DNA of 64,000 nt from Chloroflexota bacterium (GTDB taxonomy: Bacteria; Chloroflexota; Chloroflexia; Chloroflexales; Herpetosiphonaceae), in assembly GCA_020161265.1 (NCBI GenBank), contig JAIUOC010000005.1, positions 248,001 to 312,000 of the forward strand, in the 5' to 3' direction. Positions within the stretch are counted from its first letter, which is position 1. Every line of letters starts with the position of its first letter. Of the stretch, positions 1,464 through 63,490 are shown piece by piece. The notes under the pieces are model-generated. The model was not told where the DNA came from. It made no database searches and saw nothing but the letters and a program-made list of their open reading frames with translations. Position numbers and translations under genes: made by a program.

Positions 1464-3479
1464 CTATTTTAAGCTTCCATACATCCGTAAAATTGGATCG
1501 ATTGCGCTGAGGTGGCTCAAGGCCCAAGCCAAACTGCTAGCCTGAACTGCCTCAGCCAACCAACGACTGCCTCGTGGCCAACGCCACGCCTGCCCGCGCA
1601 ACCACTCCAACCAATAGGCTCCAAGTACCAACAACAATGGCACAATCGGCAGATAAAAACGATCTTTGTTCCATGTTAGGGCAATAATTGGAATATAGCT
1701 TAAACTCAGCCATGCTAATAAGCTCAAACGTGGGTCAGCCCGTTTCAACACCGCTAAGCCCAATCCCAAAAGCATCAATAAGCCAAATGGCCAAATAAAG
1801 ATTGTATGCAAGGTAAAGCTGAAAAATTGGCTTAAATTAGCTTGCCAATGACGAAATAGGCCATACGGGTCAAACGCCACAATATCGTATAGGCCTGTAT
1901 CGCTGGGCGCGGTGGCAATCGCTTCGGGGCTATCGGCAGCTACCACCGCATCAACCCGATTGTAGGCAGCTTGCCAGATATTCTCATATTGTTGTGAGAA
2001 GAATGGCCGCCCGGTATCGCGAATATCAAGCACCCACTGCGGCGCAGAGCCAAGCAAAAATCCAGCCAAAAGCAAACTTGGGGCAAACCAACGGGCCAAC
2101 CATTGCGGCCAACGCGGCGGGGTAGGCAGGCGTTGCAACCATAACCATGGCAAAATCAGCACCACAATCACTATCGATTGAAACCGGAATAAATAGGCCA
2201 ACCCCAAGCACAACCCAGCCAGCGCCACGCGACGACGGGTCAGTTCTGGTTGCCAAACTAGGATCAATAACGCTGCTAAATAGGCTGGCAATTGGACACT
2301 ATCGCTGCTAGCAACTACGCCAAAAGCCAACAATAACGGGGTTGCTAAGGCCAAAATCAAGGCGACAATTGCCCCGCGCAAGGCCAAGATCCGATAAGCC
2401 AATAAGCCCGTGAGCAGCAAGCTCAAGAGCATGCTGATAAATCCTGCGGTTTGGCCAATTGCTAGTTGATCGCCATTCCACAACAAACCAAGCCATAAAA
2501 TCAGTGGAAATCCCAACGGATAAAAGGGATGCGCCCGAAATACCGATTCGGCGGAACTGCCATGGTTGGCATGCCAGCCAAAATCTGGCCCCTCAACCGC
2601 CCACCACTGGCGCGAAAGCAACATCACAATCGCCGCGATGCCAATTAACCCAAGTAATGGCAGTGCTTGCCACCACGCCTGCCATGGCCAGCGCAACAGT
2701 GCTAAGCCAAACAAGGGCAAAATCAACAAGCTTGGGGCAAAGCGCAACGGCCACCACACACTGTGCTCGCTGGCCAGCCACGTTAAGCCACCGAGCATTA
2801 AACTTAAACCAATGGCAATTGCCGCCAACCATAGCCAATTACGCCGTTGTTGTGGCCTGATTAATGCCGCTAAACTCAGTACCAATGCTGTAATCCAGGC
2901 AAATGGCAACAATGAAATGCCGCCAGTAGGTGACCAACCGAGGCTTTGCAAAACGACGCCTAATTGGCGCTGATCGCTGCCTTCAAGCACTTGCAGCTCA
3001 CTATTGAGTGTGAGCTGCTGATCGCTAGCCCAACGTAGCCAATTCAGCGAAGCCTTTGGTTGCCAGAAAATATGATAGGAGCGTGGCGCATTGCTAATCG
3101 GCAGATCAAGCATGCGATGCTCAGCCTCATTCAATTGCACAATTGTGGTTGTTAGTGGGGAAACCAAACCCAAGCTCAGCAGATAGCTGGTATGAGTTGC
3201 TGGTGAGCCAATAATTCCATGGCCATTCGTCCAACGGTAGGCTCCCAATGCTGAATGTTCTTTGGTCTGAAAGCCCTCGACCAGCCATGGTGAATCGTAT
3301 TTGCCACCAATTGTGACTTGGGCCGGGCTTCGTTGGAGTATCCAGATTAAGATTATAGCTAAACAAAGGCCTAAAATAGCCAGAAAACTGCTTATTTGAA
3401 TAATTCTACGCTGCACAATCAATCCAATCTTCGTTGAACAAATCACATCCGTGCCTATCCTAGCACATAGCTTGCCCAA
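1464..3479 (-). CDS. Polytopic membrane glycosyltransferase-like protein (GT-C/GT39 type)
   Basis: Up to 671 residues with a short N-terminal anchor (about residues 27-46), a soluble beta-rich segment of about 130 residues and then ten or more hydrophobic helices. The FGWHANHGSSAES region and the long run of Leu/Trp-rich helices resemble dolichyl- or polyprenyl-phosphate-dependent mannosyl/arabinosyl transferases (GT-C fold), which move sugars on the outer membrane face. No nucleotide-sugar site is visible. The outermost start is a TTG at 3479 without a convincing RBS; a GTG at 3416 (giving MQRRIIQISSF) preceded by GGATTG is a reasonable alternative. The extra N-terminal soluble domain is unusual for the family. 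Substrate unknown. Confidence 0.55.
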   Translation of the reverse strand: MGKLCARIGTDVICSTKIGLIVQRRIIQISSFLAILGLCLAIILIWILQRSPAQVTIGGKYDSPWLVEGFQTKEHSALGAYRWTNGHGIIGSPATHTSYLLSLGLVSPLTTTIVQLNEAEHRMLDLPISNAPRSYHIFWQPKASLNWLRWASDQQLTLNSELQVLEGSDQRQLGVVLQSLGWSPTGGISLLPFAWITALVLSLAALIRPQQRRNWLWLAAIAIGLSLMLGGLTWLASEHSVWWPLRFAPSLLILPLFGLALLRWPWQAWWQALPLLGLIGIAAIVMLLSRQWWAVEGPDFGWHANHGSSAESVFRAHPFYPLGFPLILWLGLLWNGDQLAIGQTAGFISMLLSLLLTGLLAYRILALRGAIVALILALATPLLLAFGVVASSDSVQLPAYLAALLILVWQPELTRRRVALAGLCLGLAYLFRFQSIVIVVLILPWLWLQRLPTPPRWPQWLARWFAPSLLLAGFLLGSAPQWVLDIRDTGRPFFSQQYENIWQAAYNRVDAVVAADSPEAIATAPSDTGLYDIVAFDPYGLFRHWQANLSQFFSFTLHTIFIWPFGLLMLLGLGLAVLKRADPRLSLLAWLSLSYIPIIALTWNKDRFYLPIVPLLLVLGAYWLEWLRGQAWRWPRGSRWLAEAVQASSLAWALSHLSAIDPILRMYGSLK

Positions 3480-3523
3480 CGAGGCTTGGATTGGTCAGTT
3501 TTGGATTAATTGCTAATTAAGAT

Positions 3524-4774
3524 TCAGCCATTGCTAATCCATTGGCTGCGCAAACGTTGGATAATTTGGCTTTCATAGCCAAGTAACTCATTGGTAATTG
3601 CAGTCATGGTGTTCGTTTCAGGCTGAATTGTGGCCTGTTGGGGAGCAATCGTGCTCAGAAACTCGATTCGCTGGGCGGTTGGCGGATGCGAAGCATCAAG
3701 CAATGAGCCTTCTAAACGAGCTACCCGCCGCAAGCGTTCGCGCTCATGGTCTGGAATAGTTGCAACATGCTCGGCCATCTGCTGCAAAATATGTGGTTTG
3801 GCGGGGCTAAGTACGGCCCGCTGAATCGCCAAATGACATGAATCGTCAAGGTGAATCCGATCCAGCAAATCGATTGCGGCGGCACTGCCAGCCAACTCGG
3901 CTGATTTGTAATCGGCCAAATATTCAGCTCGTTGGCTTTCGCGGCCAGCTAACAGGATCATGAGCTTCATCCAACCCAGCAATACCCAACAAACGCCCCG
4001 CAGCAATAAATTAAATGGCAACAACAAAAAGCCTTTCAATCCTAGCTCAGGCTGTACCAGCTCAACTGGATAGATCGTTGCAATCCATGTCGCTAATGCG
4101 TTAATTGCCGAATGAATTAAGAACGAACGATTGATATCATTGTTGATACTATGCCCAATTTCATGGGCAATCAGGGCGATTCGTTCTTGATTACTCAAGG
4201 CCAGCCATAAGGGCAGCCCAAGGCCCAGTGTTGGAGTTCGATGCCAACCTAAACGGCTGAACGAGGCATTAAACCGTTCATCAACCACCACGACTTCAAT
4301 TGGTTTTGCGCCAAGCTGAGTGATCATTTGGTTGAGCAAGTTAAACAAGGTTGGCGCTTCTTTGGGCGTTAGAATTAATCCATCTTTGGGAAATGTAGCC
4401 AATGTTGGCCGCAAAAGCCAAACCATGCCCAACAACACTACGCCAAAAACCACAGCAAAAGCATTCGGCCAGCCGTCGATAATTAAGAGCAAGGCTAAAA
4501 CGAACAAAAGCAGGGTAAACCCATGAATCAGTCCAGCCATCAACCCGACAATGACTTTACCCAGCGTCCAACGTGGTTTAAGATCATTCAGCGATTGCAT
4601 CTGACGTAACATCTGGTTGCCCAAACGCCGACTGACATTGGTATAGAGCTTGTCGAACATGCCATAGGTTTCAGGCAGCGAACGTGGCTTGATATTCCAG
4701 CCACATTCGCACCATGGCAAATACGCAGGGTTGAGCGCAAGCCGACGCTGGCATTGGGGGCATTGTTGTTGCAT
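3524..4774 (-). CDS. M48-family membrane zinc metallopeptidase with N-terminal zinc ribbon
   Basis: A 416-residue protein starting at the ATG at 4774, preceded by AAGAGAGA; a TTG at 4789 in frame is less likely. Residues 4-30 hold two Cys pairs (CPQC and CEC), a small zinc-ribbon. Two hydrophobic helices follow, then the M48 active site IALIAHEIGHSIN (HExxH near residue 203) and the downstream ESQRAEYLAD segment that supplies the third zinc ligand. This is the HtpX/Ste24-like topology: a membrane-embedded protease that degrades damaged membrane proteins. The zinc ribbon at the N-terminus is an addition not present in classical HtpX. It is a single gene, with 44 bases to the neighbouring 3' start codon. 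Confidence 0.85.
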   Translation of the reverse strand: MQQQCPQCQRRLALNPAYLPWCECGWNIKPRSLPETYGMFDKLYTNVSRRLGNQMLRQMQSLNDLKPRWTLGKVIVGLMAGLIHGFTLLLFVLALLLIIDGWPNAFAVVFGVVLLGMVWLLRPTLATFPKDGLILTPKEAPTLFNLLNQMITQLGAKPIEVVVVDERFNASFSRLGWHRTPTLGLGLPLWLALSNQERIALIAHEIGHSINNDINRSFLIHSAINALATWIATIYPVELVQPELGLKGFLLLPFNLLLRGVCWVLLGWMKLMILLAGRESQRAEYLADYKSAELAGSAAAIDLLDRIHLDDSCHLAIQRAVLSPAKPHILQQMAEHVATIPDHERERLRRVARLEGSLLDASHPPTAQRIEFLSTIAPQQATIQPETNTMTAITNELLGYESQIIQRLRSQWISNG

Positions 4775-4855
4775 CGGTTCTCTCTTCAACTATTTTAGGA
4801 ATTATGCCAGTTTAGGCTAGCTTGATGCGTGTTGCATCCTGCTTATGGCCGAGAT

Positions 4856-5251
4856 TTAGGCTCGTTGATAGCTGGCAACTTGCTGGCGAAATGAATCGGG
4901 GATGAGTACAGAACGTTGAGTTTTATAATCAAACCAAATTAATTCGGTCGAGCCTTGAGTCACAATTTCGTTGCCCCGCTTGATCGTATAAATCATGGTA
5001 AAGCTTTTGTGCCCGATCCGCGAGACATCGACGCTGCCTTGGAGCTGATCGCCAAAAAATACTGGCTTGAGAAAGCGCACTGAAATTTCGCCCAAAATAA
5101 ACGGTACTTCAGCCAAATGGGCTACGCCCAACAATTCGAGCGCAAAATGTAAGCGCAAGGTCTCGAAATAGGTCAAATAGACCGCATTATTGACATGCCC
5201 AAGCCCATCCAAGTCACGAAAACGGACTTCTAGTGGATACTGAAACGACAT
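4856..5251 (-). CDS. Acyl-CoA thioesterase, 4HBT hot-dog family (YbgC/FadM-like)
   Basis: A 131-residue hot-dog protein that hydrolyses acyl-CoA thioesters. The signature VRFRDLDGLGHVNNAVYLTYFETLR holds the catalytic Asp (DLDGLGHVNN) and the Asn-Asn pair seen in 4-hydroxybenzoyl-CoA thioesterase relatives. The start at ATG 5251 is chosen because GGAGG sits nine bases upstream; a longer reading from 5293 adds 14 residues without an RBS. The exact acyl chain cannot be told from sequence. It is divergent from the DUF1992 gene across about 195 bases. Confidence 0.85.
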   Translation of the reverse strand: MSFQYPLEVRFRDLDGLGHVNNAVYLTYFETLRLHFALELLGVAHLAEVPFILGEISVRFLKPVFFGDQLQGSVDVSRIGHKSFTMIYTIKRGNEIVTQGSTELIWFDYKTQRSVLIPDSFRQQVASYQRA

Positions 5252-5446
5252 CGATGTCCTCCAACCATCCAAAGTACACACAGATATAGGCATATTGTAA
5301 CAAATTTCTCAAAATTTTGATGTTGTTGATAACCTTGTCGCCAGCCAATCTTTGTGATATTCTGCACATAAGCCTGCAACGACGTTTGAGCAATTGCATG
5401 GGGCGCTTGATCTGGCAAGGTTGCAGCAACACAAGGGGGTTTTAGC

Positions 5447-5998
5447 ATGAGCGATAATCCATTTCTTGACCGATTTCGTGAGCAAAGCCGCACTTCAGGC
5501 AAAATGAAGCCACCAACGCCCGCTTCTGACCCGAACACCGACAGCGACAAACCAAAAAAAGGTCCTGCCCTCACGGCTCAACGCGCAGGCTCGATTGCCG
5601 AGCAGCGGATTCAGGCAGCCATGGAAGATGGCATGTTTGATAATTTGCCAGGCGAAGGCCAACCAATCGATTTAAATGATGATATGTATATTCCTGCCGA
5701 GATGCGTATGGCCTTTCGGGTGATGAAAGGCAGCCAGCAAGGCTCGCCATGGGGAGCCTTGCAACACGATTATAATAACCACATCAATCGCTATCAGATT
5801 TGGTTGCGTAATAATCGTGAGACATGGGCCGTTACCAGCGTTAACGAACAAGCGCGGTTGCGCCAAGAGTTACAAGTTTGGGTGCGTGATTTGAATACAA
5901 TCATTCATCAACTTAATGCCATCGTGCCAAACGACAGCCTTCGGGTTGGTTTGGTGGTCTATGAGCGCGAATTGCGAGCCTTAGAAAGCGCCTTATAA
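5447..5998 (+). CDS. DUF1992 (DnaJ homologue subfamily C member 28-like conserved domain) protein
   Basis: A 183-residue protein. Residues about 45-110, with IAEQRIQAAMEDGMFDNLPGEGQPI, match the DUF1992/DJC28 conserved domain found in bacteria and, fused to a J-domain, in eukaryotes. No J-domain is present here. The first 45 residues are Pro- and Lys-rich and probably disordered; the rest is helical. It overlaps functionally with the CDF gene, which starts two bases after this stop (TAA CT ATG), so the two are almost certainly co-translated. Function unknown; the link to metal transport is context only. Confidence 0.8.
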   Translation: MSDNPFLDRFREQSRTSGKMKPPTPASDPNTDSDKPKKGPALTAQRAGSIAEQRIQAAMEDGMFDNLPGEGQPIDLNDDMYIPAEMRMAFRVMKGSQQGSPWGALQHDYNNHINRYQIWLRNNRETWAVTSVNEQARLRQELQVWVRDLNTIIHQLNAIVPNDSLRVGLVVYERELRALESAL

Positions 5999-6000
5999 CT

Positions 6001-6918
6001 ATGTTTAATGGGAAACAGCGCTATGCTTTATTGTCAATTGTTGCGGCATGTGTGACGATTGGCTTGAAGTTTGGCGCTTATCTTTTGACCGGATCAATCG
6101 GGCTTTTTTCGGATGCGGCGGAGTCGGTTGTCAACCTGATTGCAGCGATTATGGCCTTGTGGATGCTGACGATTGCTATGCGTCCCCCCGATCATGACCA
6201 TGCCTTTGGGCACTCCAAAGCTGAATATTTTGCCAGTGGCTTAGAGGGCATGTTAATTATGTTGGCGGCTGGCAGCATCATCTGGACGGCTTGGCCACGC
6301 GTGCTCAATCCAACGCCAATCACTCGGCTTGACCTTGGTTTAGGGCTTTCGATCTTTGCCACCGCGATCAACGGCGGTGTGGCGTGGATCATCATGCGAG
6401 CAGGCAAACGTTTACGCTCGATCACCTTGCAAGCCGATGCCCATCATCTATTTACTGATGTTTGGACGACGATTGGCGTAATTGGCGGGATCTTATTAAC
6501 TAAATTATCGGGCTGGCTGGTGCTTGATCCATTAATTGCGATCGCGGTGGCTCTCCACATTATCTGGATTGGCTTTCGGATTTTGCGTGAATCGGGCTAT
6601 GGCTTGCTTGATAGTGCCTTGCCCGACGAAGATCAAGCAGTAATTGAAGATATTCTGTCGCGCTATCGCCAACGTGGCTTGCAGTTTCATGCCTTGCGCA
6701 CGCGAGTTGCCGGGCCACGCCGTTTTATCTCGCTGCATGTGCTAGTACCTGGCTCGTGGAGTGTCCAAAAAGGCCATGATGTCTGCGAAACAATTGAGTT
6801 GGCAATTGCCGCCGCCCTACCCGATAGCCATGCAATCACCCACCTTGAGCCACTCGAAGATCCCGCCGCCTGGGACGACGAAGGCCTTGATCGGGTCAAT
6901 CACGAGCCAATCAGTTAG
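6001..6918 (+). CDS. Cation diffusion facilitator (CDF) family metal transporter
   Basis: A 305-residue inner-membrane exporter of divalent metals (Zn, Co, Fe or Mn) in exchange for protons. Six hydrophobic helices fill residues about 10-205; the metal-site elements SDAAES in helix 2, DHDHAFGHSKAEY in the loop after it, and ADAHHLFTD in helix 5 are all present. The C-terminal 90 residues form the cytoplasmic metal-sensing dimerisation domain. It is translated directly after the DUF1992 gene (two-base gap). Metal specificity cannot be assigned. Confidence 0.92.
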   Translation: MFNGKQRYALLSIVAACVTIGLKFGAYLLTGSIGLFSDAAESVVNLIAAIMALWMLTIAMRPPDHDHAFGHSKAEYFASGLEGMLIMLAAGSIIWTAWPRVLNPTPITRLDLGLGLSIFATAINGGVAWIIMRAGKRLRSITLQADAHHLFTDVWTTIGVIGGILLTKLSGWLVLDPLIAIAVALHIIWIGFRILRESGYGLLDSALPDEDQAVIEDILSRYRQRGLQFHALRTRVAGPRRFISLHVLVPGSWSVQKGHDVCETIELAIAAALPDSHAITHLEPLEDPAAWDDEGLDRVNHEPIS

Positions 6919-12383: not shown

Positions 12384-12390
12384 CGGGTCA

Positions 12391-12669
12391 CAGGCGTTGA
12401 CGGAGCCGAGTAGTTGGGCTAAAACCTGAATCAGCGAGCGTGCAAATGGTGTGAGGCACGTATCAGCAACCCCAACCAAAATCTCTCCTGAGCCGAACGC
12501 TGAACCCTTTGGCAGTAAGCGAACCGGATATCCCCCGTTATCGGGATGACGTTGTGATGGCAACGGCTTAAAGTGGGTAGTTCGTGCAAACGACTATCAA
12601 GCAGGGTGGTACCGCGAGGTCTTTTCGATAACCTCGTCCCAGCAGTGTGGGGCGGGGCTTTGTGTTTTT
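12391..12669 (+). promoter_or_regulatory. T-box riboswitch, isoleucine specifier (AUC), controlling ileS
   Basis: The leader has the T-box sequence AGGGTGGTACCGCG at 12603-12616, which binds the free CCA end of uncharged tRNA. Stem I pairs GGAG (12402-12405) with CTCC and GTTGGG (12413-12418) with CCCAAC (12471-12476). Between these lies the specifier loop with AGTA on one side and AAA-ATC on the other, so the specifier codon is AUC at 12481-12483, reading Ile. A terminator follows: CCTCGTCCC (12632-12640) pairs with GGGGCGGGG (12649-12657), then CTTTGTGTTTTT. Uncharged tRNA-Ile should favour the antiterminator and switch ileS on. The paired segments were drawn by hand. Confidence 0.92.
12632..12669 (+). 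terminator. T-box-controlled terminator before ileS
   Basis: Nine-bp stem 12632-12640/12649-12657 with loop AGCAGTGT and a U-rich tail to 12669. Its 5' arm lies just after the T-box sequence, so antitermination and termination are mutually exclusive. Confidence 0.85.
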
Positions 12670-25153: not shown

Positions 25154-26962
25154 TTATGGGCGACGCACCCCAAGCACAATCACGCTACCACGAGGAATCA
25201 AGGCTCCATTATCGATTGGCTGACCATTGGCGGTCGCACTCACCACCGTATTCGCCGCGATACTATCAAAGTTAGGAATCAAATCTGGTCCTTGCTCATC
25301 AACAATATCGAGGCGTAAATCGCTGCGCGTTGCCAAAATCGCCTCAGCCTCAGCCCGCTGGCGGCCAATCAGATCAGGGAAAATCACCAGATCGCCGACG
25401 CTCACGACCAATTCAATCTCGCTGCCTTGGGCCAATTTCAAGCCCGCTGGCGGATTTTGGCGCAAAACAAAGCCTGCCGGAATGGTTTGATCGGGCGTGT
25501 CAGTGCGCCGAACTTTAAACCCAGCGCGAATCAACGCATCCGAGGCCGCATCGAATTGTTGGCGGGTTACATCGGGAATTTCAACTTGGGCTGGCCCCAA
25601 ACTCAAGGTAAATGGAATGACCGTGCCTTTGGCAACCTTCGTTCCTGCAGCAACATCTTGGCCGATCACGGTTGCGGCTGGCGCAAGATCGTTGCGTGGC
25701 TCTTTACGTTGTTCGCCAAGCTCAAGCGATTTGAGCAGATCAAGCGCTTCGCTTTCGGTTCTGCCAACCAAATCGGGGACTTCAACCATCTCTGGGGCTG
25801 GAGTTGGCTCACCAGTTGGCGTAACTTGGGTCGGCTTGTTTCCACCAAAAGCCTGGCTGATCGATTGCATCACATCAGTAAACATCAACACATAAACCAA
25901 ACCGCCAATCCCAACCAATAAGAAGGTGGCAATCACCCATAAGCCGCAACCAGACGATTGACGTGCTTGGGGTTGGTTCATTGGCACGGGCTGTTGGGCT
26001 GCCAAGGGCGGAGCATAATTTTGGCGCGGGCGCGCTTGCGGCGCTGGTTGTTGACGGGGCGGACGCACCTCGGCAGGCTCTGGGGTTTGCGGCAAACGCC
26101 CGGCATTCGACGAAGGCACAGCCATGGTCGCTTGGTTGCCGCGCTCACGATAGAGCCGCAATAACTCGGCAAATGCCCGCGCCGATTGTGGGCGCTGAGC
26201 CGGATCTTTTGACATCGCTTGGAGCACAATCGCCTCAAGCTGTGGTGGAATCGACGGATTATAGCTGCGCAAAGGTGGCGGCGCTGCTTGGATATGCTGC
26301 AAGGCGACGGCTAAAGGCGAATCGCCACTAAACGGCAAACGTCCGGTCAGCATCTCATAGGTCAGTACGCCTAAGGCATAGACATCGGAAAGTGGGGTTG
26401 CGCCCAAACCTTGAGCCTGTTCTGGCGCAAGGTAATCGGCAGTCCCAAAGGTTGTACCTGGGTCGGTTAATGCCGAAGATTGCTTGCTTTTGGCGATGCC
26501 AAAATCGCTGAGCCGCGCATAATCATTAGCATCAATCAAGACATTTTGCGGCTTGACATCGCGGTGCACCAAGCCGCTATCGTGGGCTGCTTGCAAGGCC
26601 TCAGCCACTTGACGCACAATCGCCAAGGTGCGGGGCACTGGCAAGGGTGCTTGCAACGAAATAATTTCTTTGAGATCGGTACCTTGGACATATTCCATTA
26701 CAATATAGTGCAGATCGCCCTCAGCCCCGATATCATATACCCGCACAATATTGGGATGCCCTAATTGGGCGGCGGCATCGGCTTCGTGCTTAAAGCGGCG
26801 CAAAAATTGTTCATCACTGGCATATTGACCATGTAACACTTTAATTGCAACTGGTCGATTGAGTCGCAAATCGCGCCCAAGATAGACCGTTGCCATGCCG
26901 CCTTGGCCTAGTTTTCGCTCTAATTGATAGCGATTATTGAGAATTCGTGGTTGTTCGCTCAT
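25154..26962 (-). CDS. PknB-type Ser/Thr protein kinase with three PASTA domains
   Basis: A 602-residue membrane kinase. The kinase domain (about 11-270) has the glycine loop LGQGGMATVY, the VAIK lysine, the catalytic HRDVKPQN (near 135) and DFGIAKS, all intact. A Pro/Gln-rich linker and one membrane helix (about 342-362) follow, then three extracellular PASTA domains beginning VPDLVGRTESEA, IPDVTRQQFDAA and FPDLIGRQRAEA. PASTA domains sense muropeptides or lipid II, so it probably links wall state to growth. It starts seven bases after the YprB-like nuclease stop, with its RBS GAGGAG inside that gene's end. Confidence 0.95.
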   Translation of the reverse strand: MSEQPRILNNRYQLERKLGQGGMATVYLGRDLRLNRPVAIKVLHGQYASDEQFLRRFKHEADAAAQLGHPNIVRVYDIGAEGDLHYIVMEYVQGTDLKEIISLQAPLPVPRTLAIVRQVAEALQAAHDSGLVHRDVKPQNVLIDANDYARLSDFGIAKSKQSSALTDPGTTFGTADYLAPEQAQGLGATPLSDVYALGVLTYEMLTGRLPFSGDSPLAVALQHIQAAPPPLRSYNPSIPPQLEAIVLQAMSKDPAQRPQSARAFAELLRLYRERGNQATMAVPSSNAGRLPQTPEPAEVRPPRQQPAPQARPRQNYAPPLAAQQPVPMNQPQARQSSGCGLWVIATFLLVGIGGLVYVLMFTDVMQSISQAFGGNKPTQVTPTGEPTPAPEMVEVPDLVGRTESEALDLLKSLELGEQRKEPRNDLAPAATVIGQDVAAGTKVAKGTVIPFTLSLGPAQVEIPDVTRQQFDAASDALIRAGFKVRRTDTPDQTIPAGFVLRQNPPAGLKLAQGSEIELVVSVGDLVIFPDLIGRQRAEAEAILATRSDLRLDIVDEQGPDLIPNFDSIAANTVVSATANGQPIDNGALIPRGSVIVLGVRRP

Positions 26963-30368: not shown

Positions 30369-31709
30369 TTAGGCTGGATCGAGGGCTGCTAACGCCGCCA
30401 TAAGCACTGCATCCTGCTCAGGTAGCACAGTCCGCAGATCAAGGATTAGGCGCTGCGCTTGAATTCGGCCAACAATGGGTGGGTCGTTGGCACGAAGTTG
30501 TTTGCTCAAAGCTTCAGCCGCGCCGTCAAGGGCTAGCCCTCGGCTTGGCAAGCTTGAGCCAGGCAGCGAACCACCGCCAATGGTAGCATGAGTTGCCACA
30601 AGTTGGGCAGCGGGGTATTGCGCCAGCAGCGGGATTGCGCGTTGTTCTAATTCATCAAGCGAACTAGCCACCATGCGCCAGATTGGAATTTCGCTGCTCG
30701 CTCGCTCGGTTTCATAGGCCATAAGCGTGGCACTCAAGGCGGCAATCGTCAATTTATCAACCCGTAGCGCCCGCAATAATGGATGTTTGCGCAGTTGATC
30801 GATCAGCTGGCGTTTGCCGACAATCAGCCCTGCTTGCGGGCCACCAAGCAATTTATCGCCGCTGAACACTACTAAATCAGCCTTGGCTTGAACCATCATG
30901 GCAACCGTTGGCTCAGCTGCCAAGCCAAAGCTCTGGGTATCCAACAACGCGCCGCTGCCAAGATCGCAAATCAAAAGTTTTTGATGCTCATGGGCGGCTT
31001 GTGCTAATTCGGCCACACTTGGCTCGTGGGTAAATCCCAGCACCTGAAAATTCGAGGCATGGACATGCAATAACGCTGCGGTTTGGTTGGTGATCGCTGC
31101 CGTATAATCGGGCAAATAGCTGCGGTTGGTCGTGCCAACATCGACTAAAGTGCAACCACTTTGACGCAAAATATCAGGAATTCGAAAGCCGCCGCCAATT
31201 TCAACTGCATGGCCGCGACTCACAATTACTTCGCGGCCTTGGGCGAAACAACTCAAACAGAGCAGCATCGCCGCCGCCGCATTATTGACCACCAACGCCG
31301 CTTCGGCTCCGGTCAAGCGTTGCAGTTGTGGCTCCAACAAACTATTGCGTGAACCACGCTCGCCCTGCGCCAAATCGTATTCGAGGTTGCTATAGCCAGC
31401 ACTGGCCGTAATCATGGCCTGATGGGCAGCAGCACTGAGCGGCGCACGCCCAAGATTGGTGTGTAAAATCACGCCGGTAGCATTAATCACTTGACGCAGT
31501 GGAGGTTGTTGGCGCTGGAGGATTAAGCGCTCAGCATGGGCCAAAATCTGCTCAATTGAACATTCAGCAGCATGGTTGCGAATCGCGTGGCGAGCCTGCT
31601 CAAGGCTCGTTCGGGCAGCCTCAACTAACCATTGGGCAGGCAATTCGGGAAAACGCTCGGCTAGCAGGCCAATCAGCCCATGCACCGCTGGCAAATTACG
31701 CAAACTCAC
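30369..31709 (-). CDS. selA: L-seryl-tRNA(Sec) selenium transferase
   Basis: A 446-residue PLP enzyme that converts seryl-tRNA(Sec) to selenocysteinyl-tRNA(Sec). The opening LRNLPAVHGLI, the NATGVILHTNLGRAPLS signature and the PLP-lysine segment FSGDKLLGGPQAG (Lys near 286) are characteristic; length is typical. It starts with GTG, nine bases after the Ser/Thr kinase stop, so the two are likely co-transcribed. selB, selC and selD are not in the window. It could also be a SelA-like paralogue, but the motifs fit true SelA. Confidence 0.9.
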   Translation of the reverse strand: MSLRNLPAVHGLIGLLAERFPELPAQWLVEAARTSLEQARHAIRNHAAECSIEQILAHAERLILQRQQPPLRQVINATGVILHTNLGRAPLSAAAHQAMITASAGYSNLEYDLAQGERGSRNSLLEPQLQRLTGAEAALVVNNAAAAMLLCLSCFAQGREVIVSRGHAVEIGGGFRIPDILRQSGCTLVDVGTTNRSYLPDYTAAITNQTAALLHVHASNFQVLGFTHEPSVAELAQAAHEHQKLLICDLGSGALLDTQSFGLAAEPTVAMMVQAKADLVVFSGDKLLGGPQAGLIVGKRQLIDQLRKHPLLRALRVDKLTIAALSATLMAYETERASSEIPIWRMVASSLDELEQRAIPLLAQYPAAQLVATHATIGGGSLPGSSLPSRGLALDGAAEALSKQLRANDPPIVGRIQAQRLILDLRTVLPEQDAVLMAALAALDPA

Positions 31710-31718
31710 CAGCCAACC

Positions 31719-33428
31719 TCAGGAGATCGGCGACGGCGCAGGCCGTGGCAACGGATAAACCACAGTTGGCTCAACCCCAGGATTCGTCACGGTTGGCAGA
31801 TCTTGGGTTGGCGCAGCGGTTGGGCCATTGGTTGGGGTTGGCGGTGGCACATCAGTTGGCGTTGCTTGAATTGGCGTTGGCTCAACTGGTGTATTCGATG
31901 GCACAACCGTCGTTGGTTGGGTGGTGCGGGTCGGCGGCACGGTGCGCGTTGGTTGGATTGTGCGCGTCGGTGTATTCGATGGCACAGTTGCGCTTGGCTC
32001 AGGCGTGGCGCTGGGCGGCTCGGTTGGCGCATCGGTTGGAGTTGGTTCAGGCGTATTGCTCGGAATCGCCGTGGGAATCCGCGTCGATTCGGGCACAAAT
32101 GGCCCTGATAAGCTGCTGGTTTGGGTGGCAGTTGGCAATGAAATCAAACCGCGATTGCCCTGACCAATCCGTTGCCAGAATACAATCCCCAACACAGCTA
32201 GGGTTATAATGATCGCGACAGGGTAAATAATTTTTAAAGGATCGCTGGTTGTGGCCGTGCGCATCACCGGACGAGTGCGCATGCGAGGCCGTGCAGCATT
32301 ACTACTGCTTGGCGGCGTTGGGCGCGGGCGGGGCTGAGCCGGAGCAGCTTGAGGCCGCGATTGAGCACTCGGCGCAACTCGTGCCGTTGGATTCGGATTG
32401 CTTGGGCGGGGCACAGGTTGCGGCACAGGTGTGGCAGGTCGGGCTTGCGGCTGAATCGAGCCAACATCGGTTTGAGCGTTCGGATCATGTTGGCGTTGCA
32501 AGGATGGCAGCGCATTTATCGCCACAGTAGCTTTGCCAGCTGAAGAACCAGCCGGAACCGCCAAGCCGCGCAAATCGTCTTTGCTAGGAATCGTAATGCC
32601 AGCTCGACCGGAGAGCGTGCGTAGGGCATCGATAAAGGCAACTGCCGATGGCGGGCGGTCGCTTGGTTGCTTGGCCAATGCTCGCTCAAAGACCTTATCG
32701 AAAGCCGCTGGTAAGCCAGGTACAAGGCTGGTGATCGCTGGCGGCGGCGTGTAGGTGTGAGCAACCAGCAACTCTGGAACCGTTCCAGTAAAGGGAACTT
32801 GGCCAGTGATCACTTCAAAAGCCACAATTCCTAAAGCATATAAATCGGAGCGGCCATCAACCAACTGAGCTGAGGCTTGTTCAGGGGCAATATATTCTGG
32901 CGTGCCCATAAACATCCCGGCGCGGGTTAGACGCTTATCATTAACAACTGGTGCTTGAGCAATGCCGAAATCGGTCAATAACACCCGACCATCGGCATTG
33001 AGCAAGATATTGTGGGGTTTGACATCACGATGCACTGCTTGCTGCGAATGGGCATAATCTAAGGCCTCAGCCACGGGCATTAACAACGCCACGGCATAGC
33101 CCAACCCAAGCGCACCTTGTTCATCGATGGCTGCTTGGAGCGAACGCCCAGCAATATATTCCATGGCGATGTAGGGCAAGCCTTCGGCCTCACCAACATC
33201 AAAAATGGTTACAATATTAGGATGATGCAAATTGCCAGCGGTAATCGCTTCGCGCTCAAAGCGCTGGCTCGATTCAGGGTCACTCGCCAGCTGAGGTGCA
33301 AGAATTTTAAGTGCAACCGTTCGTTGCAAAGTGGTATCAGTCGCACGAAAAACGCGGGCCATACCACCGCGCCCAACTTCGTTGTGCAAAATATACTTGC
33401 CAAATTGGCGACCATTCCAAGAAGTCAA
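31719..33428 (-). CDS. Membrane Ser/Thr protein kinase with Thr/Pro-rich extracellular tail
   Basis: A 569-residue kinase, starting at TTG (33428) with AAGGAG upstream. The kinase domain (about 11-275) is intact: VGRGGMARVF, VALKIL, HRDVKPHN (near 132), DFGIAQAP and the APE-like region PEYIAPEQ. A Pro/Arg linker leads to one membrane helix (about 399-418) and then about 150 residues rich in Thr, Pro and Ser with repeated TPT, PTRT and SNTP units: an extended, probably glycosylated stalk with no folded sensor. It is divergent from an FHA regulator and leads an apparent operon with selA. Confidence 0.93.
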   Translation of the reverse strand: MTSWNGRQFGKYILHNEVGRGGMARVFRATDTTLQRTVALKILAPQLASDPESSQRFEREAITAGNLHHPNIVTIFDVGEAEGLPYIAMEYIAGRSLQAAIDEQGALGLGYAVALLMPVAEALDYAHSQQAVHRDVKPHNILLNADGRVLLTDFGIAQAPVVNDKRLTRAGMFMGTPEYIAPEQASAQLVDGRSDLYALGIVAFEVITGQVPFTGTVPELLVAHTYTPPPAITSLVPGLPAAFDKVFERALAKQPSDRPPSAVAFIDALRTLSGRAGITIPSKDDLRGLAVPAGSSAGKATVAINALPSLQRQHDPNAQTDVGSIQPQARPATPVPQPVPRPSNPNPTARVAPSAQSRPQAAPAQPRPRPTPPSSSNAARPRMRTRPVMRTATTSDPLKIIYPVAIIITLAVLGIVFWQRIGQGNRGLISLPTATQTSSLSGPFVPESTRIPTAIPSNTPEPTPTDAPTEPPSATPEPSATVPSNTPTRTIQPTRTVPPTRTTQPTTVVPSNTPVEPTPIQATPTDVPPPTPTNGPTAAPTQDLPTVTNPGVEPTVVYPLPRPAPSPIS

Positions 33429-33465
33429 ACGCCCGCTCCTTGCGCCTCTAGCGCATTCAGAAGCC

Positions 33466-33497
33466 CTATGTTAGAATCGCGTCACATTCTAGCATAG
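33466..33497. promoter_or_regulatory. Candidate operator with back-to-back -10 elements between kinase and FHA regulator
   Basis: CTATGTTAGAAT (33466-33477) and ATTCTAGCATAG (33486-33497) form a 12-bp inverted repeat with one mismatch and an eight-base spacer. Each arm contains TAGAAT in outward direction, a plausible -10 for both divergent genes. On the minus strand a GAGACA lies 17 bases upstream of it. Confidence 0.45.
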
Positions 33498-33580
33498 CCC
33501 TTTTGCTTTGTCTCTGACTAAGACTCTAGCATACCATACCACGCCTCTCCATGCATCGTGTGTTTGAGGAGGAATTTTTT

Positions 33581-34237
33581 ATGAGCGATCAGCCTGTGCC
33601 ATCGCTAACAATTAAGAACCAAGATGTGCCACCGCGACTTATGCCATGGGAACAAACCATTCTCACCATCGGGCGTGATGTGGCCAACGATATTGTCATC
33701 GATCATCGTTTAGCATCGCGCCGTCACGCCCGCTTGGAACGCGATGAAGCCGGCTGTTATATTCGCGATCTCGATAGCACCAACGGAACCTATTTAAATG
33801 GGGTTAAGGTCAATGGCCTCGCACCCTTACGCAATAACGACGAAGTTTGGGTCGCCGATACAGTGATCATTTTTCGCGATCCCGAAGCAACCATGAAGGG
33901 CACACCGCCACCCGTGGTCATGCATCGGATCGCTACCCAAGATCAAGCTGAATTGCACGTCGATAGTGCAGCCAAGGAAGTTTATGTGCGGGGTAAACGG
34001 CTTGACCCACAACTCACTGCCAAGGAATTTCAGCTGCTAGAGTTGCTCTACAATCGCCGTGGCGAGGTCGTGAGCAAAGAGCAAATTGCGATTGGCGTGT
34101 GGGATTATGAGGTCTACGATTACAATGCCATTGATGCCTTGATCTATCGTTTGCGCCAGCGCATCGAGATCGATCCATCTGCGCCACGCTTTGTGCTGAC
34201 TGTGCGCGGCTTTGGCTATAAATTGAGTTTAGATTAA
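33581..34237 (+). CDS. FHA domain fused to OmpR/PhoB-type winged-helix DNA-binding domain
   Basis: A 218-residue regulator. The FHA domain (about 15-105) has the phosphothreonine-binding residues: ILTIGRDVANDI, LASRRHARLE and DLDSTNGTYLNG. The C-terminal winged helix (about 140-217) has KEFQLLELLYNRRGEVVSKEQI and NAIDALIYRLRQRIE, then VRGFGYKL. There is no receiver domain, so phosphothreonine binding replaces Asp phosphorylation. ATG 33581 follows GAGGAGG; a reading from 33551 adds ten residues. It is divergent from a Ser/Thr kinase, the obvious candidate for its signal. Confidence 0.93.
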   Translation: MSDQPVPSLTIKNQDVPPRLMPWEQTILTIGRDVANDIVIDHRLASRRHARLERDEAGCYIRDLDSTNGTYLNGVKVNGLAPLRNNDEVWVADTVIIFRDPEATMKGTPPPVVMHRIATQDQAELHVDSAAKEVYVRGKRLDPQLTAKEFQLLELLYNRRGEVVSKEQIAIGVWDYEVYDYNAIDALIYRLRQRIEIDPSAPRFVLTVRGFGYKLSLD

Positions 34238-34256: not shown

Positions 34257-34358
34257 GCCCTCACTCCCTAGCCCCCTCTCCCGCAAGCGAGCGAGGGGGA
34301 ACCACGAAACCAAATGCCCCTCGCTCGCCGCTGCGGGAGAAGGGTTGGGGGTGAGGGC
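34257..34358. repeat. Large palindromic intergenic element
   Basis: A 102-base imperfect inverted repeat: GCCCTCACTCCCTAGCCCCC... (from 34257) pairs with ...TTGGGGGTGAGGGC (to 34358), with a second inner stem GCGAGCGAGGGG (34287-34298) against CCCCTCGCTCGC (34317-34328). It is unlike the GGGATCA mosaics. It may be a REP/MITE-like element and could also terminate the FHA-regulator transcript. It sits in the 227-base gap before the dynamin gene. Confidence 0.75.
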
Positions 34359-63354: not shown

Positions 63355-63375
63355 GCTTCAATCATTGAGTTGCCA

Positions 63376-63475
63376 CTCATCTATCAGCGCGATTGCTGCT
63401 GGAAGAAGCACCTTTCTCGGCGAGACGGTTGCTGGAGTGTCATCGGGCCAGATCCCTCGACTCCTCGTGATGAGG
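63376..63475 (-). promoter_or_regulatory. SAM-I (S-box) riboswitch upstream of metH
   Basis: Read on the minus strand it has the S-box sequence: P1 5' strand CCTCAT (63475-63470), CGAGGAG, the conserved GAGGGATCTGGCCCGATGA, CCAGCAACC, then AGGTGCTTCTTCCAGCAG and the P1 3' strand GATGAG (63381-63376). About 100 nucleotides, followed by a terminator. High SAM should switch metH off. Confidence 0.95.
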
Positions 63476-63490
63476 TATTCAATTATGGGC

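Follow-up and report, generated by a model that had tools for sequence, protein, structure and literature searches.

Organization of the kinase–regulator locus

The window, i.e. the whole 64 000-nucleotide stretch of DNA that was analysed, contains a gene for a Ser/Thr protein kinase (31719–33428, minus strand) and a gene for a putative regulator (33581–34237, plus strand), which diverge across 152 bp. The initial annotation had described a receptor Ser/Thr kinase facing, across 150 bases, a protein with an FHA domain in the place of a receiver, fused to an OmpR-type DNA-binding domain. That description agrees with the Pkinase, FHA and Trans_reg_C matches obtained here, with the single predicted transmembrane helix of the kinase and with the absence of a receiver match in the regulator; the 152 bp are measured from a corrected regulator start.

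The kinase has 569 amino acids (Pfam Pkinase, E value 2.4e–43). Its start codon is TTG (33428–33426, minus strand), at a position where aligned relatives carry ATG, and a predicted ribosome-binding site, AAGGAG, is located at 33436–33441 on the same strand. Residues 1–275 (32604–33428, minus strand) align with orthologues as a cytosolic kinase domain. The Hanks-type features (catalytic Lys, HRD, DFG and the activation loop, RLTRAGMFMGTPEY) were all found in it, and the loop motif RLTR.G.FMGTPEY is near-invariant among orthologues. Membership of this protein family suggests that the gene product would be an active kinase. Hydropathy predicts a transmembrane helix at residues 400–418 (32175–32231, minus strand); alignment places one such helix in every complete orthologue, usually followed by a proline/threonine-rich tail. 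The extracytoplasmic tail in the window (31722–32174, minus strand) is 25 % Pro and 21 % Thr, and the Pfam scan of it gave no match to a known sensor domain, PASTA included. The protein scored 323 bits against the NCBIfam PknB_PASTA model, for which the cut-off is 450, and is thus not a PASTA kinase. A separate PASTA-type PknB kinase is encoded at 25154–26962, approximately 5 kb from the pair. On the strand of the kinase gene, selA (L-seryl-tRNA selenium transferase, 30369–31709) begins 9 bp past the kinase stop codon, and the two genes possibly form one operon in the Herpetosiphonaceae. A juxtamembrane motif in this kinase, SSAG-x-ATVAI, was considered as a docking site for the FHA domain. 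It is confined to the Herpetosiphonaceae and a few relatives and is missing from the Chloroflexaceae; it was therefore rejected as a general docking site.

The regulator has 218 amino acids. Its start was placed at 33581 rather than at the listed ORF start of 33551, 30 bases further upstream, because AGGAGG (33567–33572, plus strand) lies 8 bases ahead of 33581 and because Herpetosiphon giganteus and Herpetosiphon llansteffanensis have an in-frame stop codon shortly upstream of it. The Pfam scan revealed an FHA domain (core at residues 29–89; 33665–33847, plus strand; PF00498, E value 6.1e–20) followed by an OmpR/PhoB-type winged-helix (wHTH) DNA-binding domain (residues 144–215; 34010–34225, plus strand; PF00486, Trans_reg_C, E value 7.8e–22), and detected neither a BTAD nor a receiver domain. 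The residues of the phosphothreonine (pThr) pocket, G31, R32, S46, R47, H49, N68 and G69, are intact in the window protein, as had been noted initially, and G31, R32, S46, R47, H49 and N68 were found to be invariant over 49 homologues from across the phylum, with identities down to 23 %. From the families to which its domains belong, the regulator would be expected to bind both pThr and DNA.

An AlphaFold model of the regulator (mean pLDDT 79, pTM 0.47) consists of two domains, with residues 106–122 as a linker of low confidence. Foldseek matched the model to the FHA domains of Ki67, EmbR, GarA, OdhI and DgcB and to the wHTH domains of response regulators; among the solved chains listed, none spans both domains in the FHA-then-wHTH order. 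Downstream, a long, G+C-rich, imperfect inverted repeat (34258–34358), which may be a terminator or one of a dispersed type of palindromic repeat, separates the regulator gene from a gene for a dynamin-like protein.

A symmetric element in the intergenic region

The intergenic region contains an inverted repeat at 33466–33497, CTATGTTAGAAT-CGCGTCAC-ATTCTAGCATAG, with 11 of 12 positions paired. Within it are two extended –10 elements that conform to the conserved sequence TGnTAnAAT: TGTTAGAAT (33469–33477, plus strand), directed towards the regulator, and TGCTAGAAT (33486–33494, minus strand), directed towards the kinase. The arrangement TGnTAnAAT-gap-ATTnTAnCA, with –10 elements on both strands of one element as in bidirectional promoters, is shared by 33 of the 35 Chloroflexales intergenic regions, the window being counted among them. 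The 385 kb of locus DNA contained no further occurrence, and its count in shuffled intergenic regions was zero. The gap is 7–9 bp in the Herpetosiphonaceae and one sister family and 16–21 bp in the others, so that the two gap classes differ by about one helical turn.

Positions 3 and 6 of the arms vary, and do so without pairing, as in the extended –10 element. An RNA stem was rejected on these grounds, and the element is read as two extended –10 promoters placed face to face. Judged by its sequence, 33466–33497 thus appears better read in the first place as a symmetric divergent promoter than as an operator; a promoter alone can explain the symmetry, since the variable positions are those of the extended –10 element. 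The promoter may or may not double as a binding site for the regulator, i.e. as an autoregulatory operator. OmpR-type domains usually bind direct rather than inverted repeats. As the predicted transcription starts nearly coincide, binding of RNA polymerase in the two directions would be expected to be mutually exclusive.

Genome searches found about one copy of the full symmetric motif per genome, essentially that at the locus itself, with almost none besides. Apart from the locus, searches with the full motif or with its most conserved half gave one-mismatch matches that were scattered and without apparent pattern. A regulon outside the locus was not found in these motif searches.

Conservation of the pair in the Chloroflexales

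The regulator was sought in 41 Chloroflexales genomes, comprising that of the window (6.0 Mb) and 40 relatives, and homologues with E values of 1e–20 or lower were found in 39 of them, usually as one full-length copy. It is apparent that the pairing is strict: in all 35 loci for which 500 bp or more of upstream sequence was available, the regulator gene is adjoined by a divergent, orthologous kinase gene. The partner kinases share 59–99 % identity within the kinase domain. Two apparent cases of regulator loss were attributable to the assemblies, namely a run of N between the kinase and aroA (genome G264) and a contig that breaks off shortly beyond the promoter motif (G039). A third assembly, G033 (640 contigs), contains neither the kinase nor the regulator.

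Most other neighbours of the pair turn over while the adjacency of the kinase holds. Those in the window (SelA, the dynamin-like GTPase and an amylase) are common to the Herpetosiphonaceae only. After the kinase, the neighbour that is conserved most often is aroA (EPSP synthase), which lies 27–174 bp downstream of the regulator gene in 26 of 38 loci (e.g. 4230–6230 in locus L189) and is absent from that position in Herpetosiphon; where present, it is possibly transcribed together with the regulator gene.

Pairs across the phylum and phylogeny of the kinases

A profile of 23 regulator orthologues was searched against 400 Chloroflexota genomes at an E value of 1e–30 or lower, and FHA-wHTH proteins were found in 92 of them. 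A kinase gene directly adjoins the FHA-wHTH gene in 24 of 40 distant loci; 21 of these pairs are divergent, two are co-directional (L110 and L117) and one is convergent (L114). The genomes checked encode between two and 34 kinases, the highest number being that of the window's own genome, and with such numbers approximately 0.3 adjacent cases would be expected by chance among the 40 loci, by our estimate. The observed adjacency is therefore far above chance; the co-occurrence that the initial annotation had offered as a check extends well beyond the order, and conserved adjacency, the lack of which it had named as a ground for rejection, holds. In one small genome (G368), the neighbour of the regulator is one of only two kinases. 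The remaining 16 distant FHA-wHTH genes have no kinase gene within approximately 4 kb, and their neighbours, where readable, are varied; for these, the partner could be encoded elsewhere, or the regulator may respond to several kinases, as EmbR does. Relatives of the regulator in plasmid records were considered as well and were rejected, the match being confined to the wHTH half.

When 64 kinase domains were placed in a maximum-likelihood tree, the 13 Chloroflexales partner kinases formed one clade (support 100/99), and 22 distant partner kinases formed a second (support 100/99), far from the first. The kinase of L110 and a further, tandem kinase in the genome of the window (see below) fall outside both as singletons. 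The distant partners also differ in their activation segment and consist of a kinase domain with one C-terminal hydrophobic helix, i.e. they are tail-anchored, with almost no ectodomain. The distribution of the paired kinases over two separate clades and two singletons indicates that such pairs arose repeatedly; this type of regulator has been joined to unrelated kinases, through either replacement or independent pairing.

The sequence TCGGCGT was observed in 12 of 21 distant kinase–regulator intergenic regions, against 0.5 expected (L131, L136, L139, L141, L142 and L143 are among these loci). It is often situated within an inverted repeat on the kinase side, the arms of which differ among species. 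An Rfam search of the repeat gave no match; it may represent either a hairpin of the kinase leader or an operator at the DNA level.

An invariant threonine in the linker

Thr104 (codon 33890–33892, plus strand) lies in the motif DPEATMKG, which follows immediately on the last FHA strand, between the FHA and wHTH domains; in the AlphaFold model it is at the edge of the low-confidence linker. Threonine is present at this position in 50 of 50 aligned homologues. Where the FHA domains encoded in the genome could be inspected, a linker threonine was found only in the two that are followed by a wHTH domain. Because it is invariant and has no counterpart behind the remaining FHA domains, Thr104 is the best candidate phospho-acceptor, and an invariant threonine at the edge of a flexible linker has the appearance that such a site might be expected to have. 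Its conservation could also have a structural reason. In FHA folds, the pThr-binding loops are generally opposite the termini, which would favour the reading of a phosphorylated Thr104 in trans.

The second FHA-wHTH protein of the genome is encoded at 2180–2836 of locus L188 (G000:C2:301500–308500), and its wHTH match is weak, below the Pfam cut-off. Its linker, FICDNATTELE, retains the threonine. The gene for the tandem membrane kinase noted above (2848–4605) follows 11 bp after the end of this FHA-wHTH gene.

Comparison with known systems

The closest known parallel is PknH–EmbR of Mycobacterium tuberculosis, a relay from a kinase to an FHA transcription factor encoded at one locus (PMC4601284, PMC4238996). 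PknH phosphorylates EmbR in an FHA-dependent manner, and promoter binding by EmbR rises (PMC4601284, PMC6213207); a kinase and an FHA partner at the same locus are a known mycobacterial theme (PMC4238996). Here, too, a Ser/Thr kinase and an FHA factor with an OmpR-type DNA-binding domain share a locus, and an intact pThr pocket and a kinase at the locus, two features by which the EmbR family is recognized, are both present. EmbR was the second best fold match of the regulator model, and the best-matching stretch of EmbR to the regulator profile was its FHA domain (residues 307–386). The regulator probably works like EmbR. EmbR is a 388-residue chain of the SARP family with the order wHTH-BTAD-FHA, whereas in the 218-residue regulator the FHA domain comes first and no BTAD is present; because the order is reversed and the BTAD is absent, the regulator was placed outside the EmbR (SARP-FHA) family. 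It differs from PknH–EmbR also in the invariant linker threonine and in the divergence of the pair around a shared symmetric promoter.

With the OmpR/PhoB response regulators, the protein shares a C-terminal wHTH domain (best matches WalR/YycF, RpaB and RegX3) and an N-terminal domain that would read phosphorylation. Unlike them, it has an FHA domain for a receiver, has no phospho-aspartate and is partnered by a Ser/Thr rather than a histidine kinase. Among the closest FHA folds (7rj3, 6i2p, 4qcj and 6hc1) are those of GarA/OdhI and of DgcB of Bdellovibrio. These proteins combine an FHA domain with a conserved threonine outside the fold and read their own pThr, the phospho-peptide of GarA/OdhI being N-terminal. 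The title of entry 6hc1 likewise names a 'phosphorylated N-terminal peptide'; the candidate threonine of the regulator is instead just C-terminal of the FHA domain, and the output is a DNA-binding domain, unlike in GarA/OdhI and DgcB.

The intergenic element resembles the bidirectional promoters of Escherichia coli, in which pseudo-symmetric –10 elements serve both directions and mutual exclusion of RNA polymerase has been discussed (PMC12825309). The start sites in E. coli are 18, 10 or 23 bp apart (PMC12825309), whereas the starts predicted here nearly coincide. A literature search, in which subscription journals were mostly outside coverage, found no report on this pair in the Chloroflexota.

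Proposed mechanism and alternatives

The initial annotation had proposed a one-step relay from kinase to promoter, as a eukaryote-like counterpart of a two-component pair. Of this proposal, gene context gives good support to a functional link between kinase and regulator; the biochemical steps are ones that we infer. The reading favoured here, which we consider somewhat more probable than its alternatives combined, is that the two proteins form a one-step pThr signalling pair, probably autoregulated, that leads from kinase to promoter. A change in the extracytoplasmic tail of the kinase, or in the state of the membrane, would lead to autophosphorylation of the activation loop, and the FHA domain of the regulator would dock onto a pThr of the kinase. 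The kinase would then phosphorylate the regulator, most likely at Thr104; a second regulator molecule would capture the phosphorylated residue with its own FHA domain, and the wHTH domains of the resulting dimer would bind the shared symmetric divergent promoter and other targets. In this manner the pair would regulate itself and, in the majority of relatives, also the aroA gene that follows. Phosphorylation at Thr104, dimerization in trans, autoregulation and the nature of the signal are the less certain parts of this scheme, and with 34 kinases in the genome, the specificity of the neighbouring kinase for the regulator is only a proposal. The distant regulator genes with no kinase gene nearby and the failure of the motif searches to reveal a wider regulon also tell against the scheme. 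An extended form, in which pThr104 read in trans yields a reciprocal dimer on the symmetric promoter, as the counterpart of a receiver dimer, in a phylum-wide design that unrelated kinases joined repeatedly, is put forward tentatively and may well not hold.

The invariance of the pThr pocket could also be accounted for by a membrane tether, whereby the FHA domain binds the autophosphorylated kinase, the regulator is kept off DNA and dephosphorylation releases it, phosphorylation of the regulator being unneeded. The kinases of both clades are membrane-anchored, including those that are tail-anchored without an ectodomain, and EmbR2 and MupFHA bind and inhibit their own kinases (PMC4238996). A tether would, however, leave the invariant Thr104 unexplained, unless that residue is structural, and we regard it as unlikely. 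The regulator might instead serve several kinases, of which the neighbour is one, the adjacency reflecting shared expression rather than a dedicated relay. The number of kinases in this genome and the 16 distant regulators without a neighbouring kinase are in keeping with such a role, as is EmbR, a substrate of PknA, PknB, PknH and PknJ (PMC6213207). The strict pairing throughout one order, the dedicated kinase clades and the two-kinase genome G368 argue against it, and it is judged quite improbable.

It could further be supposed that no signalling link exists and that the genes stay together because both depend on the same compact bidirectional promoter and neither could do without it, as the near-universal symmetric promoter of the Chloroflexales would allow. 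In other classes, however, pairs of this type have a kinase that is not orthologous and a promoter of different sequence, and tandem pairs also exist; this explanation is accordingly given very little weight.

Should the one-step pair be correct, a whole phylum would connect membrane and promoter through a minimal Ser/Thr pathway of two proteins, whose dedicated partners could be recognized from gene position, as in two-component systems. To our knowledge, most of the bacterial Ser/Thr kinases that have been studied act on many substrates and lack a regulator that is obviously dedicated to them. With a single candidate phospho-site in a 218-residue protein and a single candidate promoter, kinase-to-promoter specificity would become directly testable, and the repeated joining of unrelated kinases to one type of regulator would illustrate the evolution of such relays. 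Elsewhere in the window, Rfam matches identified a T-box leader (12388–12644) and a SAM riboswitch (63374–63476).
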